Positions 9,489 through 17,892 of a stretch of DNA of 22,705 nt are shown piece by piece (within the stretch, counting starts at the first letter, position 1; every line of letters begins with the position of its first letter). Both the position numbers and the translations under genes were made by a program. The stretch is from the IMG/VR virus record IMGVR_UViG_3300046718_000717, positions 1 to 22,705 of that record; one strand, 5' to 3'. The stretch is from a virus. The notes below the pieces were generated by a model. The model worked only from the letters and a program-made list of their open reading frames with translations, was not told the origin of the DNA and ran no database searches.

Positions 9489-9511
9489 GGTGGCCTCCTC
9501 GGTTTGGCAAT

Positions 9512-9563
9512 CTTGAATCGTTTGCATGTGAGCGTCTCCACGCTACACGGCAAACGGTTCAAG
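9512..9563. repeat. Dispersed hairpin element, copy A
   Basis: Outer arms CTTGAATCGTTTGC and GCAAACGGTTCAAG pair over 14 positions with one T-G. Inside lie the non-pairing boxes ATGTG and ACACG, then an inner stem AGCGT/ACGCT with a 4-base loop (CTCC on plus, GGAG on minus). It fills the gap between the distal tail gene (stop at 9580) and the fibre gene (GTG 9488). No U-tract follows, so it does not look like an intrinsic terminator. Related copies lie at 17308-17361 and 17837-17892. Confidence 0.85.
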
Positions 9564-9579
9564 AGGTTTGCGGGATGCG

Positions 9580-10506
9580 CTAGTTGAAGAGACGGTTCCA
9601 GACGATGACGATCGAGCCACCGCTCGTCTGATTGCCGCCGAAACTAAAGAGGGCGATGGAGTTCTGGACGCCGGCCTGGACGGCGAAGTCGTAGCCCAAA
9701 CCGACGCTCGTGGTGATGAACTGCGAGACATCCGTGATCGCACCGGCGCGGGTCAGGAGGTAATCTTTTGCGCCAAAATCCAGGCGGAGCGCATCACCCA
9801 CGAGGAGTTTGAGCCCAACATTGACCACACTCGGCAACCCCGAGAAGGATTGAATCGCAAAGCCGCCATCACCCCCAAATGGTCCCGTCATCTTGATGAC
9901 CGCACCCGTATCGCTGACGGTGGGGATACCGCCTGCCCCCGCGACGGAGGCATCACACATCGTGGACGGGATCGCGAACGTGGTGCCGGTGATCGCGACG
10001 GCGGCGCTGCCACCCAGGCGAAAGCCGGTTTGCCCGAGCCGGAGGCCCGCGCCAAGGTGGCGGTCGGGATTGACGGGGGCGCGCTCGTGCCAGGGAGAGA
10101 GGAGTTCCCACTCGACAGTCAGGTCGGAGACAATGCCGTCCGTGATGCTATCGATTGGCGCATCGAGCAGGTAGCCGATGGCGTCACAGATGCGCTCGTA
10201 GCCATCGTCGTGGATGTAGACCAACCGCACCTGACGGCCGAGGTCCATGGCGCGGTTCAACAGGTCGAGCGTCGCATCGTTACTCAGGTGCGTGCGGGAC
10301 GTGAAGAACCGGGCACTCCATCGCCACTTGCGTGGCTGCGCGGGCGCACCGGTCGCCAGGAAGGGTGAGGAGCCATAGGGACTGTTGGCGATGGTGTAGG
10401 TAGCGTTGCGACGCTCCCAGCCGCTGTTGCCCGTCAGATGGATGCGCTGAAACGTAAAGAGGGTGCCGGTGGCCGTGGCGGATTCAAGTCGGTCGAGGTA
10501 GCCCAC
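9580..10506 (-). CDS. Distal tail (Dit-like) protein
   Basis: A 308-residue protein directly after the tape measure gene, the normal position of the distal tail/baseplate hub protein that connects the tail tube to the tip. The N-terminal half has the expected pattern: 'HLTGNSGWERRNATYTIA', 'WRWSARFFTSRTHLSNDAT', a 'GRQVRLVYIHDDG' strand and 'VSDLTVEWELLSPWH'. The second half (about 165-308) is beta-rich (ITGTTFAIPSTM, SIVIVWNRLFN) and may be a galectin-like or carbohydrate-binding domain, as in large Dit proteins. The start is GTG 10506, only 2 bases past the TAA of the tape measure gene, so re-initiation is likely. The assignment rests on position and fold-like pattern more than on a catalytic motif. 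Confidence 0.7.
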   Translation of the reverse strand: MGYLDRLESATATGTLFTFQRIHLTGNSGWERRNATYTIANSPYGSSPFLATGAPAQPRKWRWSARFFTSRTHLSNDATLDLLNRAMDLGRQVRLVYIHDDGYERICDAIGYLLDAPIDSITDGIVSDLTVEWELLSPWHERAPVNPDRHLGAGLRLGQTGFRLGGSAAVAITGTTFAIPSTMCDASVAGAGGIPTVSDTGAVIKMTGPFGGDGGFAIQSFSGLPSVVNVGLKLLVGDALRLDFGAKDYLLTRAGAITDVSQFITTSVGLGYDFAVQAGVQNSIALFSFGGNQTSGGSIVIVWNRLFN

Positions 10507-10508
10507 CG

Positions 10509-13500
10509 TTAGCCTGCCTTCCGGCCCGACCCACCCGTGCGGGTCGGGGTGAGGGCTGCCCGCAGTTGCGCCTCGATCGGTGCCAGGATGCTGCGGATGG
10601 TCGCGTCCACGTTGGGATCGGCATTGACGGTGATCGGGGCATTGACGGTAATGGATCCGCCGTCACCGGCGGAGACGACCCGATTGTGCAGCGGCGTCAC
10701 CACCGCCCCGCCCGGCGCGAACACCAGCTCGGTGAACGGGGTCATACCCCCGCCCGGTGCATCGCCAACAAGGGCGGAGCCGCCCGCTGGGATCGCGCCA
10801 CCGGCGGCGAGGCGTTTGATGGAGCCGCCGCCGACGGGTTGGGATTGGAGGAAGCCCGACGATGCGCTCTGTGCGCTCGTGACGGCCGCGCCAAGTGTTT
10901 GCGACAACTGATCGCCCGTTTGTCCGAGCAGCGTCGCGGCGCTTTGGAGGGACGCCAACGCGGCATCTGCCGTCGTTGCCAACTCCTGTTGCTTGGCAAT
11001 CTCGTCATCGATTGCCTTCGTGGCCGCCTGATAGGCCGCGTCCTCTCGGGCTCGCTGATCCTCGATCTGCCACTGCTGGATTTGGTACGCCTGGTCGCGC
11101 GCCGTGCGGGTCGCCTGGATCTGCTCGTCCTGTGCGGCGTTCGCGTCCTGCATGATCTGCGACTCGCGTTGCAGTGCCGCAACGCGATCCTCATGCACCC
11201 GTGCGGCATCCACCCCTTCCTGCTGGATGTGGTACTTGGCATCCTCATAGCGCCGCGTCTCCGCGATTTGCGCGGTTTTGATCCCGTCCAGTTGGGAGGT
11301 GAGGGTGTCTTTCGCCCTTGCCTCATATTCCTTCTGGATGAGCAGGTTCTCTGCCGCCAACCGCTTGGAGGCCAGCGTGCCCGGCCCACCCGCCTGTGCG
11401 GCGAATACCTCTGACGCGATCGTATTTCCCGCGCTGTTCGTCTGTTGCGCCTTAGTGATGGCGTTGAGTTGATCCTCGAACTGGCGCGAGGCGATGGTGT
11501 GGCTGCGATCGGCCGCCGTGCCCTGATCTTCGATGCCGCGCGTCGTATCGGTGTAGCCCTGATTTTCCGCGGTCGTCCGTGCCTGGATATCCTGCTGGGC
11601 CATACGGCGGTCATGCTGGCGCTGGCTGTCTGCCGCCTGATCGGCCCAGCCCTGCATCGTCTGTGCCCGACTCGCCGCCTGATCGGTTTGTTGCCGCTGC
11701 GCCACGATGGCGGCATGATCGGCTTCGAGCGTCTTCTTGCGGTCGGTCAGTTGGGTGATCTGCGACGCAATCTGCGCTTGAGATGACATCACGTCGAGTT
11801 GCTGGTTGAGATTGGCGGCAAGGGGACCGCCGATGATGTCGGTGATGCGCTGCTCATCCGCCGCGAGATTTCCTGTTTGGGAGCGAATATCTGAGAGCGC
11901 GTGCGACCACGCATCGAGGAAGCCGAGTCCTTGTTGCAGCGCGGCACTGCTGGCGGCTGCTTGCTCGCTCGGCAAGATGTCGGGGCCGAACTGGATCGCG
12001 GCCTTCTTCTGGGCAATCGCATCGAGGACGGGTTGCAGGTTCTGGAATGCCTGCGTCGCCGCTTGGACATCCTTCGGGTCCATCGCCGCAAAGAGGGATT
12101 TGATACCGGCCGTCTGGGTGGTGATCGCCGCCGTTGATGCCGCCAACTGTGACGCCGCGGCAATGGCGTCGCCAGCGGCGGCCGTGCCCGTCAGGTTCGT
12201 GGTGCCACCACCGGCAGCGGCGAGGTACGACTGCGCGCCTGAGTGGATGCCGAGCGCGGCCGCCAGTTCCGGTGACAGGCCGGAAGCGCCACCGGCGGCG
12301 CCGATGGAGACGTACTGCGCGCCTGCGCCGACCGCTTCGGTATGGATGCGACTGCCACCGACATCCGCCGTGCTGACCTGCTTGCCGCCGCCCATATAGA
12401 TGGCAACGTGGCCGTTCGTCGCATCGCCGTAGTAGACAAGGTCGCCCGGTTGCGGATCGGTCGTCACCAGCCCTTGCTTTTGCGCTGAGGCAAAGGCGGC
12501 ATTGGCGCTGAGCTCATTCTTCCCGGTCGCGCCCCGCTTGCCGGTGATCGCCTGCACGGTCTCTTCGACCCACTGCTCGCAGTATCCCGCCAGTTTGTCC
12601 TGATCGACGTCCGCGAGGGCCTTCTGGACGATCTGATCACGGACGGTGCTGGCAACCGCGTCATGGGTACCGGACGCGGCCGGGTACTGCTGTGAGAGAT
12701 CGCCATAGTAACTGACGGTGTTGGCGATGTTCGCTGCCTGCGACGTGCTCGGTGTGGCGCTGCCCGCGACGTACCGCTGCCGGACTGCCGTCAGGTTGCC
12801 CGACTGGTAATCGCCCGCGTATTGCCCCGTCGTCAGGTTCGTCGCCATCGCCCGGAAGAAATCGGTGAGGGAGGCGAACTTCGCGTAGGGGTCGCCCTCC
12901 GGACTGGTCACGCCGGACGACGCGCCCGGCTGGCCGGCGTACTTGATGCCCGCGAGATTGTTGCCCGCGAGCTGTGAACCGGAAATGTTGGTCGCGTAGG
13001 AGTTTTCAAACTTCATGAACGCGAGCAGGGCGCGCGGATCGACGTTCTTTTCCTGCGCGGCGGCGATGATCGCCGCGTACGCCTGTGGGTTCGCCAGCGG
13101 CCCGGACGTGACGATGCTGCCGTACTGGGACTGCGACAGGGGTTGGAACTGGTTCCAACCACCACCACCGCCGGCGCCACCTTGCTGCAAGCTGTCATTG
13201 CCATACGGCCCGCCACCGGTGGAACGGATCGTGGTCGGCCGCGCGTAGCCGCTGTCGCCCACCGTGCCGCCCCCTGGCTGCGCCCCGCCAATCTGTGCGC
13301 CGGCCGCGTTGGCGATGATCGTTGCCAGCGCCGGCGGTAGTCCCGTCAGGTGCGTGGCGATCTGGACGTCGATGGTCGCCTGATGGGGCTTCGCCAGCAG
13401 GTCGGTAATCTGTTCGAGCGCCTTGTCGGTATTCGTTTTCACATCGATGACGAGTTGCTGCGGCCCGCCCACCTTGCCGATCATGTCTCGGAGCGTGTCG

Positions 13501-15581
13501 TCGGCCTTTTTCAGGTCCGGGTAGTTCGCGGCAATGCCGAGGATGTCGCCGGTGGCGTTCCGCTGCAACCCCGTCTTCTGCTGGTCGATGTTGGCGAGGA
13601 TGTTCTTGTAGTTCGCGAGCAGTTGCAGGTCTTCCGGCGTGGCAATGCCGAGGGAGCGCCGGCGGTCGGCGTCACTGGCCGCACCCGTCACCTGGCCGCG
13701 GAAGGTCGTCAACTGCTGGATCTTCTGGTCGGTCTCCGTGAGGGTAAGCATGAACCCTTTGTAGGCGGTGGTGGCCGCATCGGTCGCGTCGGTCAGCCTT
13801 TTGAACTGCGCGGACAGCGATGCAAGGTTGTCGAGCGCCTGATTGCTCTGCCCAAGGTCACGCAGGCTGTCGCGGGCTTTCGCGAGGTCGGGCGCCACCG
13901 CGGCGAAGCCGGCAATCCCGTGCGCGAGATCGACGGTACCGATGACCTGAGCGGCGCGTTGATAGGCGGTCGTCAGGTCCTGGATATCCTGCTTCGCGCG
14001 CTGGATCTGCTCCGGTGTCGCCTGCGCGCCCGTCCCGGTGATGCCGAAAATGGCGCGACCGACATCCTCCGAGGACGCGCCGAGCGCCTGTGCCTGACCG
14101 GCCTGCTTGAGTGCATCCTGCAACTTCTCGTGCGCGGCGGTGGCTGCATTGACCTGCGTGATGTGGTCTTCGATCGCCTGGTTCAGTTCGCCGCTGAAGA
14201 GGTGGGAGAGGTCGGCGGCATTGCCATAGAGCCCGCCAAAGGTGTCCGACAGCGCCCGCCACTGCTGGCGCGCCTGGTCGGCCGTGAGTGCGCCCGTGCG
14301 CACCTGATTCGTCAGGTCGGCGATGGCACCGCTGGCCGCGCGCTGCTGGAGGAAGCCCGCACCGCTCACGGTCGGCGCGAAGTCACCGGCCGCACTCTGA
14401 TCCGCTGCGGGACCGGTGTCAATGCCCGGCACGTTGATCTTGCCCAGTGACTTCACCGCGCCAATCAGTGCGTGACCGGGCGACAGCGCGGCCTCCAAAT
14501 AGGGAATCGCACCCGTCGGGATCTTCCCCAACGCTGCCGCGACCGCTTCGGCCGCCTTCGTGATCGCCGTCAGGTCGTCAACGAGGTCCGTTGCCGCCTG
14601 CTTGAACTTCGGTGACGCCAGTGCCTCTGCTCCGAGGTCAACGGCCTTCGACAGTTCCTCGAACAGCGGTTGACCGATCCCCGCCATCTCCTGCCGAAAC
14701 GTGTCATTGAGGTTTTCCAGCTTGCCCGCAAACGTCTTCGATATCTGGTCCATCAGGTTCGGTAGTTGACTCATGCCTGCGATGATCGCCGTCGACGCGG
14801 CCGCCCCGGAGATCTTCCCCGTCTCCGCCATCTGCCGTGCCTTGGCCTCCGTGACCCCCAGTTGATCGGCAAGGAGTTTCCAGGCGGGGATGTTTGCCTG
14901 GATGAGCTGATTCATGTCCTGGGAGTTCAGTTTGATACTGTTGTGCATCTGGCCGAGGGCGAGCGTTACCCGGTCGAGCGTCTCGGAGTTACCGCCGGCG
15001 GCAGCAACGGCATTGCCCATCGCGGTCAGGTCGGGGATGACATCCTTCGCCGCAAACCCAACGGCAAGCAGGCGCTGCGCGTAGCGGTTCACCTGGTCGA
15101 AATCAAACGGGGTTTTCTTGGCGAAGTCCTGCAACTGCCCGAGAAAGTCGTTCGCACGTGAGGCGGAGCCGAAGAGACTGGTGAAGGCAACCCGCGTCTG
15201 TTCCAACGTGCTGTTGAAGCCGACGATCGCATCCGCAGCCGCGCCAATCCCCTTCGTGATTTGCACACCGATAATCGCGCCGATTGCCGCAAGGCTGCCC
15301 GTCATGATCGAGGAGACTTTCGATTCCAAACCGGCCAGGCGGTTCTCCGCCTGTGACGTGTCCACGTCGACGCGGGCCCGCGCCGTCGTCTGATTGATGC
15401 GCGTCAGCTGGGTGGAGATGCCGCCGAGTTGCTGGTTGACGGTGGTCGTGTTCGCGGCCAGGTTGATGCGCGCACTCTGCTGCCCGAGCAGCGCCACCTC
15501 CTGCCGGACGGCACGCAGCGTCGCCAGAATCTGGTCCGCGCCGGTCGCCTGGAGTTGTACCCGGACAAGGGAATCAGGCAC
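10509..15581 (-). CDS. Tape measure protein with glucosaminidase and NlpC/P60-like domains
   Basis: A 1690-residue protein that sets tail length and probably helps DNA pass the envelope. Residues about 120-280 fit the tape measure N-terminal domain (TRVAFTSLFGSASRANDFLG, KTPFDFDQVNRYAQRLLAVG). A hydrophobic stretch at about 94-118 precedes it. Residues about 810-965 resemble a glucosaminidase-type glycosidase (LLAFMKFENSYATN with Glu859; NLAGIKYAGQPGA). Residues about 990-1090 resemble an NlpC/P60 cysteine peptidase (GYCEQWVEE with Cys1001; GDLVYYGDATNGHVAIYMGG with His1058). About 1290-1570 is a long Gln/Arg/Ala-rich coiled coil. The start is GTG 15581, preceded by GAGGAG, 3 bases after the stop of the T reading frame. 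Wall-degrading domains inside tape measure proteins are known in other phages and are thought to open a hole in the wall at entry. Confidence 0.9.
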   Translation of the reverse strand: MPDSLVRVQLQATGADQILATLRAVRQEVALLGQQSARINLAANTTTVNQQLGGISTQLTRINQTTARARVDVDTSQAENRLAGLESKVSSIMTGSLAAIGAIIGVQITKGIGAAADAIVGFNSTLEQTRVAFTSLFGSASRANDFLGQLQDFAKKTPFDFDQVNRYAQRLLAVGFAAKDVIPDLTAMGNAVAAAGGNSETLDRVTLALGQMHNSIKLNSQDMNQLIQANIPAWKLLADQLGVTEAKARQMAETGKISGAAASTAIIAGMSQLPNLMDQISKTFAGKLENLNDTFRQEMAGIGQPLFEELSKAVDLGAEALASPKFKQAATDLVDDLTAITKAAEAVAAALGKIPTGAIPYLEAALSPGHALIGAVKSLGKINVPGIDTGPAADQSAAGDFAPTVSGAGFLQQRAASGAIADLTNQVRTGALTADQARQQWRALSDTFGGLYGNAADLSHLFSGELNQAIEDHITQVNAATAAHEKLQDALKQAGQAQALGASSEDVGRAIFGITGTGAQATPEQIQRAKQDIQDLTTAYQRAAQVIGTVDLAHGIAGFAAVAPDLAKARDSLRDLGQSNQALDNLASLSAQFKRLTDATDAATTAYKGFMLTLTETDQKIQQLTTFRGQVTGAASDADRRRSLGIATPEDLQLLANYKNILANIDQQKTGLQRNATGDILGIAANYPDLKKADDTLRDMIGKVGGPQQLVIDVKTNTDKALEQITDLLAKPHQATIDVQIATHLTGLPPALATIIANAAGAQIGGAQPGGGTVGDSGYARPTTIRSTGGGPYGNDSLQQGGAGGGGGWNQFQPLSQSQYGSIVTSGPLANPQAYAAIIAAAQEKNVDPRALLAFMKFENSYATNISGSQLAGNNLAGIKYAGQPGASSGVTSPEGDPYAKFASLTDFFRAMATNLTTGQYAGDYQSGNLTAVRQRYVAGSATPSTSQAANIANTVSYYGDLSQQYPAASGTHDAVASTVRDQIVQKALADVDQDKLAGYCEQWVEETVQAITGKRGATGKNELSANAAFASAQKQGLVTTDPQPGDLVYYGDATNGHVAIYMGGGKQVSTADVGGSRIHTEAVGAGAQYVSIGAAGGASGLSPELAAALGIHSGAQSYLAAAGGGTTNLTGTAAAGDAIAAASQLAASTAAITTQTAGIKSLFAAMDPKDVQAATQAFQNLQPVLDAIAQKKAAIQFGPDILPSEQAAASSAALQQGLGFLDAWSHALSDIRSQTGNLAADEQRITDIIGGPLAANLNQQLDVMSSQAQIASQITQLTDRKKTLEADHAAIVAQRQQTDQAASRAQTMQGWADQAADSQRQHDRRMAQQDIQARTTAENQGYTDTTRGIEDQGTAADRSHTIASRQFEDQLNAITKAQQTNSAGNTIASEVFAAQAGGPGTLASKRLAAENLLIQKEYEARAKDTLTSQLDGIKTAQIAETRRYEDAKYHIQQEGVDAARVHEDRVAALQRESQIMQDANAAQDEQIQATRTARDQAYQIQQWQIEDQRAREDAAYQAATKAIDDEIAKQQELATTADAALASLQSAATLLGQTGDQLSQTLGAAVTSAQSASSGFLQSQPVGGGSIKRLAAGGAIPAGGSALVGDAPGGGMTPFTELVFAPGGAVVTPLHNRVVSAGDGGSITVNAPITVNADPNVDATIRSILAPIEAQLRAALTPTRTGGSGRKAG

Positions 15582-15584
15582 GCA

Positions 15585-16282
15585 TCACTCCTCAGCAGCA
15601 GCGCGTGCCGCCGCAAACTTGGCCCGCACTTGCGCGTCGGCCTGCGCGGCGAATCGGGCTTCGCGCTCCTCATCCGTCTCGGGTTCGACCAGGGATTCCC
15701 GCAGCTGTGCGCGCATCGCCTTCAGTCCGATGCCGAAGATGCGCGCCGGGTCGGAGGCGGGCAGGCCCATCGAGGGTTCCTGCGAGCAGAACGTCTCGTA
15801 CCAGTCGCAGTGTCGTCTGAAGGTTATGGGGTCGGCTTCGACGAGGTCACGGATTTCCCAGACGGTTTTGTGGAGGGCAGCGGCGTAGCCAAGGAGAGCA
15901 TAGGTTTCTGGATAAAAGGGTCGGGTTCAGCGGCTTTCACTGCCGCCTCATCACGATAATCGGAGGTAATCTTGATCACGAACTCGCGTGCGGGCTGGTA
16001 GAACCAGGCGCCGATCGCCAGCGCCTCGTCGGTCGTCAGCGGCGTGTTCGTCTCACTGACAAAGCCCATCGCCGCAACCGTGGCGTCGTAGCGCGCCGTC
16101 GAGAGGTTCGGATTTTCCGCTTGCAGTTTCACCAGCGTATCGGCCTGGAAACCGTCGAGGCGGCGGAAGTAGTACGTGTCGCCGTCGATCTCCAGCGGCT
16201 GCGGCATGTACCGCTGCTCGCTCTTCTGTTTCAAGCGCGCGATGGCGTTCAGGCCATTCGGGCTCGCGCCGTTCTCGGACAT
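15585..16282 (-). CDS. Tail assembly chaperone GT, made by -1 frameshift
   Basis: The product is read from ATG 16282 to the TTT ending at 15914 (123 codons), slips back one base, and continues in the -1 frame for 109 more residues to the TGA at 15585. The joined protein is 232 residues. The sequence after the slip (YPETYALLGYAAALHKTVWE, then IRDLVEADPITFRRHCDWYE) reads as normal protein and is open in this frame with no start of its own. The last 60 residues are charged and helical. The pair of G and GT products before a tape measure gene is a hallmark of siphovirus tails; both bind the tape measure protein and recruit tail tube subunits. An ATG at 15770 exists in this frame but has no convincing SD. 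Confidence 0.8.
15824..16282 (-). CDS. Tail assembly chaperone G
   Basis: A 152-residue protein from ATG 16282 (SD GGGGAG, 4 bases upstream) to TAA at 15824. It starts MSENGASPNGLNAIARLKQK and has a beta strand followed by helices (PLEIDGDTYYFRRLDGFQAD; DEALAIGAWFYQPAREFVIK), as expected of G chaperones downstream of major tail genes. The last 30 or so codons after the slip site (KPMLSLATPLPSTKPSGKSV) are low in complexity, fitting a non-frameshifted tail with little constraint. An upstream in-frame extension to 16384 is rejected because it lacks an SD and reads as noncoding. Confidence 0.8.
   Translation of the reverse strand: MSENGASPNGLNAIARLKQKSEQRYMPQPLEIDGDTYYFRRLDGFQADTLVKLQAENPNLSTARYDATVAAMGFVSETNTPLTTDEALAIGAWFYQPAREFVIKITSDYRDEAAVKAAEPDPFIQKPMLSLATPLPSTKPSGKSVTSSKPTP
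15914..15920 (-). promoter_or_regulatory. Programmed -1 ribosomal frameshift site, C CCT TTT
   Basis: Read on the minus strand in the G frame, the codons are GAC CCT TTT ATC. The heptamer C CCT TTT fits X XXY YYZ, so both tRNAs can re-pair after a one-base backward slip. The -1 frame is then open for 109 codons into the T part. The position between the major tail and tape measure genes matches the conserved G/GT arrangement. Confidence 0.85.
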
Positions 16283-16395
16283 AGCACTCCCCTTTGTGGG
16301 ACGTGACGAGCCGGGCATTGGGGAGGGATGTGCCATCAGCCCCGCCGCCCCGCTCACCACCGTCACGCACCGCATCAACCGCAATCTGCACTCAA

Positions 16396-17088
16396 CTACA
16401 CAAGTGCTTCTGCTCTAAATGTGGGGTCCTCGAAAAGCCCGCCCGTGCACGTGCCACCGACCATACCCGCGCCGGGAGCCGTGACGGGAAAGCCGCCGAC
16501 ATTTGCGTACACGATGCGCATACGATTGGATACGAGATCCTCGAAGAGGGCGAAGACGAAGTAGTTGGCACGCATGCGCTGGGCGGTCATGAGATCGACG
16601 ATGTCGGACGAGGAGTAATAGTCGAACTGGAACGTGCCGCTCACCTTGCCGGCGAACGAGGGCACGATCCGCTTGCCGTACTCATCGGCGGGGATCTGCG
16701 CGGCCGTCGAGCCTGCCTGCCAGTTGTTGACGTGGGAGAGCAGTGGGACGTCGGTGCCGCTGGCAGTCGAGATCCAGCCGCAGTCGATGGTGATCGTCGG
16801 CGTGCCTGTGAGCGGAGTATAGAAAACGACCTCGCCCGTCCCCCAGTTGATGTAATAGTCCGTCTGCTTGGCAGCGACCGTGGCATTCTTGACGATCGTC
16901 GGTGAGCGCGGATCGAGGACGCTATGGGCGCGTGCGGTGATGCGGAAGCACTGGTTCGCCGGGTAGGGCGTCGGGCTGCCCGAGAGCGTGGTGATCGCCG
17001 AGCACGGCTCGGCGGGCGCCAGCGTGGTGGCGCCCTTCAACCAGGCAATCCCACCTCCGACGCCAGTGGTAGGCGGCTGATAGCTCAT
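16396..17088 (-). CDS. Major tail (tail tube) protein
   Basis: A 230-residue protein encoded just before the tail chaperones, the usual place of the tail tube subunit. It is beta-rich with few charged clusters: 'TDYYINWGTGEVVFYTPLTG', 'KVSGTFQFDYYSSSDIVDLM', 'ANYFVFALFEDLVSNRMRIV', ending 'GLFEDPTFRAEALV'. The pattern of strand, helix (SSDIVDLMTAQ) and closing strands fits tail tube folds. ATG 17088 follows AAGGAG by about 6 bases. The gap of 113 bases to the next gene (16283-16395) shows no ORF with an SD; an imperfect GAGC...GCTC hairpin lies in it. Major tail proteins diverge greatly, so the call leans on gene order. Confidence 0.75.
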   Translation of the reverse strand: MSYQPPTTGVGGGIAWLKGATTLAPAEPCSAITTLSGSPTPYPANQCFRITARAHSVLDPRSPTIVKNATVAAKQTDYYINWGTGEVVFYTPLTGTPTITIDCGWISTASGTDVPLLSHVNNWQAGSTAAQIPADEYGKRIVPSFAGKVSGTFQFDYYSSSDIVDLMTAQRMRANYFVFALFEDLVSNRMRIVYANVGGFPVTAPGAGMVGGTCTGGLFEDPTFRAEALV

Positions 17089-17117
17089 TGGTGTTCTCCT
17101 TTATGGTGTAACGAACG

Positions 17118-17294
17118 CTACGGCGTCTTGCCCAGCCGGGCGGACCGCTCTTCTTCGCGCATCTGTTCCAACAGGGCCGCCTGCTCGGGCGCGATGCCGA
17201 CGCGCCGGGCCGCTTCCTCCTGCGCCGCGATCTCTGCCTCGCTTCTCGTCGATTCCTTTGGTTCCTTCTTCTCGGTGTCCTTCTCTGCCATCAT
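17118..17294 (-). CDS. 58-residue charged helical protein
   Basis: A small gene between the tail terminator and major tail genes. It starts ATGATG at 17294/17291 with GAGGAG just upstream and ends with TAG at 17118. The product is strongly charged and probably all helical: MMAEKDTEKKEPKESTRS, then 'AEIAAQEEAARRVGIAPEQA'. I recognise no family. Small helical proteins in this position could assist tail assembly, but that is inference. The repeated hairpin copy B ends 14 bases before its start, so that element may shape translation or stability of this part of the transcript. Confidence 0.65.
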   Translation of the reverse strand: MMAEKDTEKKEPKESTRSEAEIAAQEEAARRVGIAPEQAALLEQMREEERSARLGKTP

Positions 17295-17307
17295 GCTGCT
17301 CCTCTAC

Positions 17308-17361
17308 CGGTTGACCCTTTGCCGTGTAGCGTCTCCACGCTCACATGCAAAGGGTCAACCG
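17308..17361. repeat. Dispersed hairpin element, copy B
   Basis: Perfect 15-bp outer arms CGGTTGACCCTTTGC (17308-17322) and GCAAAGGGTCAACCG (17347-17361). Internal boxes are CGTGT and CACAT, i.e. the boxes of copies A and C on the opposite strand, around an inner AGCGT-CTCC-ACGCT hairpin identical to copy A in the same orientation. The TGA stop of the tail terminator gene lies inside the right arm. It ends 14 bases before the start of the 58-residue gene. Confidence 0.9.
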
Positions 17362-17807
17362 AGGTGATATGCCTGAACGCGCACGGTGATCGCAACATAG
17401 CGGTAAATTGCTCCCTGGACGTTCTCGGTGTAGGGCCGGGTGTTCTCGCGCGTGACCGCGGTCAGGTGCCAGCCGGCAACCGTCCACGGCGTGTCGAGCA
17501 GCGCCGTCTGGATGGCCGCGCCGAGGTCCGACACGATCGTCGTCGAGTATCCGGGCGCCGCCGGCCGATCAACGGCGGTGACCTGCCAGAGGTCATTGAC
17601 TCCTGCATGCGAGTACCACCCTTGCGTCTGGTCGCTCACGACACCGTAGACGAGATAGGGAAACGGGCCGCTTGACACGTCATCGTCGGGATAGATGCGC
17701 GTGCCCACGGCCGCCGCGATCGTGGGGTTGGCAAGGAGCGCGGCGCGGATGCCGATGCCGATCGCATGGATATCCAGTGCCCGCGGGACGGCGGTCATGA
17801 CGGTCAT
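17355..17807 (-). CDS. Tail terminator / tail completion protein (DUF3168-like)
   Basis: A 150-residue protein of the DUF3168 pattern: an N-terminal helix (IGIGIRAALLANPTIAAAVG), then 'TRIYPDDDVSSGPFPYLVYG', a central strand 'DLWQVTAVDRPAAPGYSTTI', a helix 'SDLGAAIQTALLDTPWTVAG' and closing strands 'YRYVAITVRVQAYHLG'. These proteins cap the tail tube and join it to the neck. ATG 17807 follows GGGAGGCG at good distance. The frame stays open upstream to a GTG at 17936, but that extension has no SD and runs through hairpin copy C. Its position between the gp10-like gene and the major tail gene is standard. Confidence 0.8.
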   Translation of the reverse strand: MTVMTAVPRALDIHAIGIGIRAALLANPTIAAAVGTRIYPDDDVSSGPFPYLVYGVVSDQTQGWYSHAGVNDLWQVTAVDRPAAPGYSTTIVSDLGAAIQTALLDTPWTVAGWHLTAVTRENTRPYTENVQGAIYRYVAITVRVQAYHLG

Positions 17808-17836
17808 CGATTCGCCTCCCAGTGCCTCGACGAATG

Positions 17837-17892
17837 TTTGAAAGGGGTTTGCATGTGACCGTTCAAGCGGTACACGGCAAACCCCTTTCAAA
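17837..17892. repeat. Dispersed hairpin element, copy C
   Basis: Perfect 16-bp outer arms TTTGAAAGGGGTTTGC (17837-17852) and GCAAACCCCTTTCAAA (17877-17892). The boxes ATGTG and ACACG match copy A. The inner stem is ACCG/CGGT with loop TTCAAG, different from copies A and B but still paired. It lies about 30 bases before the tail terminator start, in the largest gap of the structural module. Confidence 0.9.

Follow-up and report, generated by a model that had tools for sequence, protein, structure and literature searches.

The question raised by this locus is why a single phage operon should carry three dispersed hairpins, the stems of which differ in sequence from one another yet remain almost fully paired. 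The window (the whole 22,705-nucleotide stretch of DNA analysed, IMG/VR record IMGVR_UViG_3300046718_000717) is a phage fragment coding for an HK97-type capsid, a tape measure protein and tail completion proteins, with nearly all genes on the minus strand and no tRNA detected within it. Its sole clear plus-strand gene (86–574) specifies a protein whose C-terminal end consists of repeated SPVVPNPGL units, and the tape measure protein (10509–15581, minus strand) gives a weak match to NlpC/P60 peptidases.

Three hairpins reported in an initial annotation of this DNA were each found at the places claimed: copy 1 at 9511–9564 (boxes in plus orientation, a single T-G mismatch within its outer arm, 66.7 bits with the covariance model), copy 2 at 17308–17361 (minus, 74.5 bits) and copy 3 at 17837–17892 (plus, 75.7 bits), the last having 14-bp arms, or 13-bp arms of the family type if taken as 17838–17891. 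The corresponding cores located by pattern search were 9524–9551 (plus), 17321–17348 (minus) and 17851–17878 (plus). Single-stranded DNA folds of the window copies on all six strands yielded z values of −6.9 to −10.6 relative to dinucleotide shuffles, and RNA folds of the three hairpins were likewise far better than shuffles. The outer stems were, as previously described, variable yet nearly fully paired in the three copies, with TTTGC/GCAAA adjoining the boxes; the inner stems differed between copies and no U-tract was present. The inner stem of copy 3 is of 4–5 bp, as in copies 1 and 2, with a T-G closing pair and a 4-nt loop. Neither a terminator nor a promoter was found at copy 1. That the three copies share one architecture was thus upheld, but the annotation had overlooked that copy 2 runs opposite to copies 1 and 3, even though all three lie within one minus-strand operon.

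Each element consists of outer arms of 13–14 bp, a bulged middle helix, an inner stem of 3–4 bp and a loop of about 5–10 nt. The opposed boxes, ATGTG and ACACG, had been described as unable to pair; by way of contrast, alignment of 67 copies revealed covarying pairs in a register shifted by one, the left box reading GC-A-Y-G-W-G-N and the right N-W-C-R-C-G-G-C. In copy 1 these correspond to GCATGTGA (9524–9531, plus strand, with A3 and G7 extrahelical) and TACACGGC (9544–9551, plus strand, with C5 and G6 extrahelical). Across the 67 copies, Y4-R4 alternated between T-A and C-G, W6-W2 and N8-N1 also covaried, and G5-C3 was constant, the W6-W2 switch from T-A to A-T having occurred in three different box backgrounds. 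The bases consequently left extrahelical in the family, A3, G7 and C5G6, were nearly invariant (G7 in 73, C5 in 71, G6 in 68 and A3 in 66 of 73 copies). An alternative GTG/CAC register with other bulged bases is permitted by energy models, and the covariation within the alignment favours the shifted one.

When the 67 distinct copies were aligned without their loops, 99.1% of the cells in 22 pairs were paired, and both sides had changed in 18 of those 22. Double-changed cells numbered 371, whereas the shuffles gave 95 such cells and 70% pairing; when the partner was displaced by 1–3 columns, pairing fell to 34–42%. A smaller alignment gave equivalent results (22 pairs, 99.1% paired, 133 double-change cells versus 34 in shuffles). 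The stems have therefore been held to Watson-Crick pairing while their sequences drifted, and the selection for structure proposed in the initial annotation is strongly supported. The pair cells comprised 1574 Watson-Crick, 8 G-T (0.5%) and 6 A-C, so that wobble pairs were no commoner than A-C, a scarcity attributable in part to detection by way of Watson-Crick arms, although the covariance-model search added few extra copies. Since selection on RNA would tolerate G-U, the near absence of G-T argues for pairing at the level of DNA, probably on both strands, or for arms that copy each other. A T(T/G)(C/G)A(T/G)TG-like motif is common to the apical loops of most copies and faces either way with respect to the boxes, as though the loop and the boxes had undergone separate inversions.

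When IMG/VR was scanned for the exact pattern GCATGTGA-N6..26-TACACGGC, 102 stretches were returned, about half of them chance matches with unpaired flanks and the remainder with perfectly paired arms of 12–15 bp; further copies in the same records were obtained with a relaxed scan and the covariance model. The resultant family comprises 76 distinct copies of a dispersed imperfect palindrome of 53–58 nt in more than 30 phage contigs, with up to about 11 copies per contig (one of 40 kb). The circumstances that the initial annotation had named as refuting it were thereby looked for and did not arise: there are homologues with compensatory changes, and copies situated inside genes proved to retain the structure. 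Three long-loop copies stand outside the 76 (G007:13719–13802, G007:47399–47482 and G015:19319–19402); in each the spacer is exactly 42 nt and holds an additional hairpin, that of G015 being possibly pseudoknot-like.

Among the matches listed, wider box variants in IMG/VR were due to chance except for two more genuine copies, and on the same basis the family appears restricted to a single group of environmental phages that are related to one another. The exact-pattern scan of 85,000 GTDB species genomes gave no match, nor did a search of named phages and plasmids; no chromosomal or host copies were found, and a portal protein scan for a host was also without a match. A long autonomous version with distant boxes and matching arms was sought, and none with a transposase occurred among the matches listed; the strong long box pairs that were examined arose by chance, from two similar copies, or from one copy lying within another. 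In the open-access literature we found no previous account of a hairpin family of this kind in phages.

Comparison of near-identical contigs established that a whole hairpin may be present in one and absent from another at the same site. A 56-nt insertion in G030 between CGACGAAG and AAGTAGGG is absent from G029, G002, G004 and G011, in flanks that are 97–100% identical (96.7 and 100% against G011), and L156 and L155, 98.8% identical, differ by the presence of an element at one site. Similarly, copy 2 of the window is an exact 54-nt insertion between CTCCTCTAC and AGGTGATATG relative to G020, G017 and G025. It alters the 3' end of a gene for a gp17-like tail completion protein (PF11367; 17355–17807, minus strand), the TGA stop of which (17355–17357) is provided by the arm of copy 2, while the uninterrupted counterpart in a relative ends with TAG at the insertion point. 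The claim that every copy lies between a stop codon and the next Shine–Dalgarno sequence hence holds only imperfectly for copy 2, although the Shine–Dalgarno sequence of the small downstream gene (17118–17294, minus strand) does lie just outside it. G004 carries a copy in a small gene at a site that is empty in the window, and further filled and empty pairs were provided by L165/L166, L141/G008 and L170/G022. No relatives were found by way of the protein adjoining copy 1, and copies 1 and 3 are therefore without a clean empty site. Five independent metagenomes have the same sites filled, and the element is therefore not an artefact of assembly.

What is inserted is the complete palindrome, its arms being of 13 or 14 bp; on our reading, 0–1 target bases are lost. 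No direct repeats of at least 4 nt flanked any of the 76 copies, the exact empty sites likewise showed no target duplication, and no target motif was detected (no flanking position exceeded 0.24 bit). Identical copies occupy unrelated sites of one contig (G007:49853 and 53325; G013:16622 and 16799), and about ten copies hold other copies within them. At G016:18935–19099, and equally in G001, three elements are nested with each outer arm pair still perfect. Parsimony and these nested copies suggest that the polymorphism reflects insertion and not exact removal. The element is accordingly dispersed and polymorphic, is inserted whole, copies itself within a genome, and enters both its own kind and genes in frame.

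An integron parentage could be contemplated at this point, the hairpins being regarded as sites of the attC type recombined by an integron integrase, since attC sites too are folded single strands with conserved extrahelical bases, variable stem sequences and strand asymmetry. However, the R-box pair RYYYAAC/GTTRRRY was present in only 1 of the 76 elements, cassette genes between copies were absent, and the insertions were single hairpins with no common crossover sequence. The lack of R-boxes largely refutes this reading, which is scarcely credible.

The positions and orientations of the copies bear upon a quite different proposal, favoured by the initial annotation, that the hairpins are RNA elements of a late operon, either RNase III-type processing sites or protein-binding mRNA hairpins. 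Consistent with this, the hairpin also forms in RNA and many copies are intergenic. However, the boxes were oriented with the transcription of flanking genes in 33 cases and against it in 30 (p = 0.80), the apical loop divided 22:29 and flipped independently of the boxes, G-U was virtually absent, the sites are insertion polymorphisms, and no Rfam covariance model matched the hairpins at its gathering score. Moreover, 26 of 68 unique copies overlap predicted genes by at least 40 nt (the 26 being approximate, from a simple gene caller), including recT (twice) and the genes for a C5-cytosine methylase, a portal protein and a prohead protease, in each of which the reading frame remains open through the hairpin. 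A role in mRNA is thus highly improbable, and the proposal of RNase III-type processing is not supported. The DNA cruciform site that the annotation had listed as an alternative came nearer the truth, but mobility was not suspected. One copy (G003:51053–51107) lies inside a VRR_NUC nuclease gene, and another (G007:54273) one gene away from that of G007; separately, a RecT homologue with an apparent intein (CFSEDTEVLTDQGF ... GFSMLCGNC) was encountered at G016:28998–31190, G001:18825–21017 and in the L124/L125 region.

The explanation that best accommodates these data is that the hairpins are very probably copies of a non-autonomous mobile DNA element, non-coding and structured, that has spread among related phages. 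Because it encodes no protein and nevertheless lands cleanly at new sites, some enzyme must move it. The element would travel as folded DNA, either a single-strand hairpin or a cruciform; an enzyme acting in trans, of host origin or from another replicon, would read the extrahelical A3, G7 and C5G6 and process the hairpin at its foot; the hairpin would then be joined to a target bearing a cut or a gap, the sequence of which would matter little, and the new copy would become fixed by replication. No Y1 transposase (PF01797) was found in 17 carrier records, although controls were detected in 5 genomes, and an integrase occurred in only 2 carriers (G007 and G022), which indicates that some carrier phages are temperate. 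Counting against this explanation, neither a mobilising enzyme nor any host or chromosomal copy was found; the number of bases lost at the joints is 0 in some and 1 in others, which a very precise transposase would not give; and the dissimilarity of the outer arms of most copies would require either fast compensated drift or rewriting of the arms during transfer.

The distribution of nested insertions is pertinent to how such movement may occur: of 12 counted, 4 lay between R4 and C5, 3 at G7 and 2 opposite G7, which is suggestive of a preference for irregularities of the hairpin, in a count that leaves out the arms, since a host copy with an interrupted arm escapes recognition. This clustering at bulges, together with the 0–1 base lost at joints, is consistent with spread driven by cruciforms and no dedicated transposase, whereby a phage VRR-NUC would cut cruciforms, and repair or template switching would copy the hairpin into breaks. 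VRR-NUC is a junction-resolving nuclease with a Holliday-junction-resolvase-like fold, and both phage and bacterial forms cleave four-way junctions (PMC4103454). VRR_NUC genes were detected in 7 carriers of different lineages, with weaker homologues in others, but not in the long carriers G001 and G016, which nonetheless contain nested copies, so that the nuclease is at most a candidate helper. It is also widespread in phages with no such hairpins, and the invariance of the unpaired bases points to a recogniser devoted to them; we consider this route unlikely.

Within the preferred reading of a mobile element moved in trans, insertion may be guided by structure rather than sequence, the enzyme reading the four nearly invariant extrahelical bases and tolerating any other change that preserves pairing, with existing bulges preferred as targets and 'Russian dolls' of nested copies as the outcome. 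This proposal is tentative and rather doubtful; if true, structure-read hairpin insertion would constitute a mode of transposition distinct from the DDE, HUH/Y1 and integron types already described. Tiny mobile hairpins also occur in bacterial chromosomes and in mitochondria, with no known mechanism of movement for most of them. In the compact phage genomes, filled sites can be set beside nearly identical empty ones, the insertion boundaries are exact, some copies are nested and the extrahelical bases scarcely vary, and the recognition rule and insertion mechanism are hence directly testable with oligonucleotides and extracts. The phage hairpins may serve as natural probes for DNA-hairpin-processing enzymes, and they caution that conserved covarying 'RNA' hairpins of phage operons can be mobile DNA.

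Of the known systems, the closest likeness is to the REP/REPIN sequences and their TnpA_REP (RAYT) transposases (PMC8266576, PMC3116915, PMC3733652), which are also short bulged palindromes, present in many dispersed copies, in both orientations and mostly intergenic, that encode no protein of their own and insert into existing copies. It is quite possible, though on balance we doubt it, that the phages are mere hitch-hikers bearing host REP/REPIN-like repeats moved by a host RAYT or an IS200/IS605-type single-strand transposase acting on the bulged hairpin. A single bulged DNA hairpin with no target duplication would fit such an origin, as would the facts that REP recognition requires both bulge and loop, the bulge being essential in Escherichia coli (PMC8266576), and that REPINs insert into one another (PMC3116915). 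However, the phage hairpins are single units of 54–56 nt with variable 13–14 bp arms, twice the total length of a REP, and lack the unpaired GTAG or CGTC tetranucleotide by which a REP is defined at one foot of its hairpin: GTAG occurred 0 times on the left and 6 on the right of 76 copies (1.4 expected), and CGTC 3 and 5 times (6.4 expected), which is background level. They also reside in phages, and neither a RAYT in the carriers searched nor a copy in the GTDB genomes was found. Mitochondrial GC clusters and repetitive hairpin elements (PMC4478555, PMC2800124) are similarly mobile palindromes of 40–60 nt with presence/absence polymorphism that merge and shuffle and have no known mobiliser. 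By way of contrast, the GC clusters of yeast lie between direct repeats of AG or ACT, whereas 2-nt flanking repeats of the phage hairpins numbered 4 against 4.4 expected, and the latter possess invariant bulge boxes and covarying arms and belong to phages rather than an organelle. The target-site duplication of classical MITEs, mobilised by DDE transposases, was seen in none of the 76 copies. Rickettsia palindromic elements (RPE) occur in frame within genes as well as intergenically, as do the phage hairpins, but are of other sequence and size. Cyanobacterial small dispersed repeats (SDR) are likewise tiny mobile hairpins for which other repeats serve as insertion sites, but are shorter, belong to bacterial chromosomes and have, to our knowledge, no covarying arm-box architecture. 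SDR are cited in PMC3116915, and some RPE are CGTC-type REPs (PMC3733652), a tag that the phage hairpins lack. Since they behave as do REP/REPIN sequences and mitochondrial hairpin elements but lack the features by which each of those is defined, the phage hairpins are a new family among the very small mobile hairpins.
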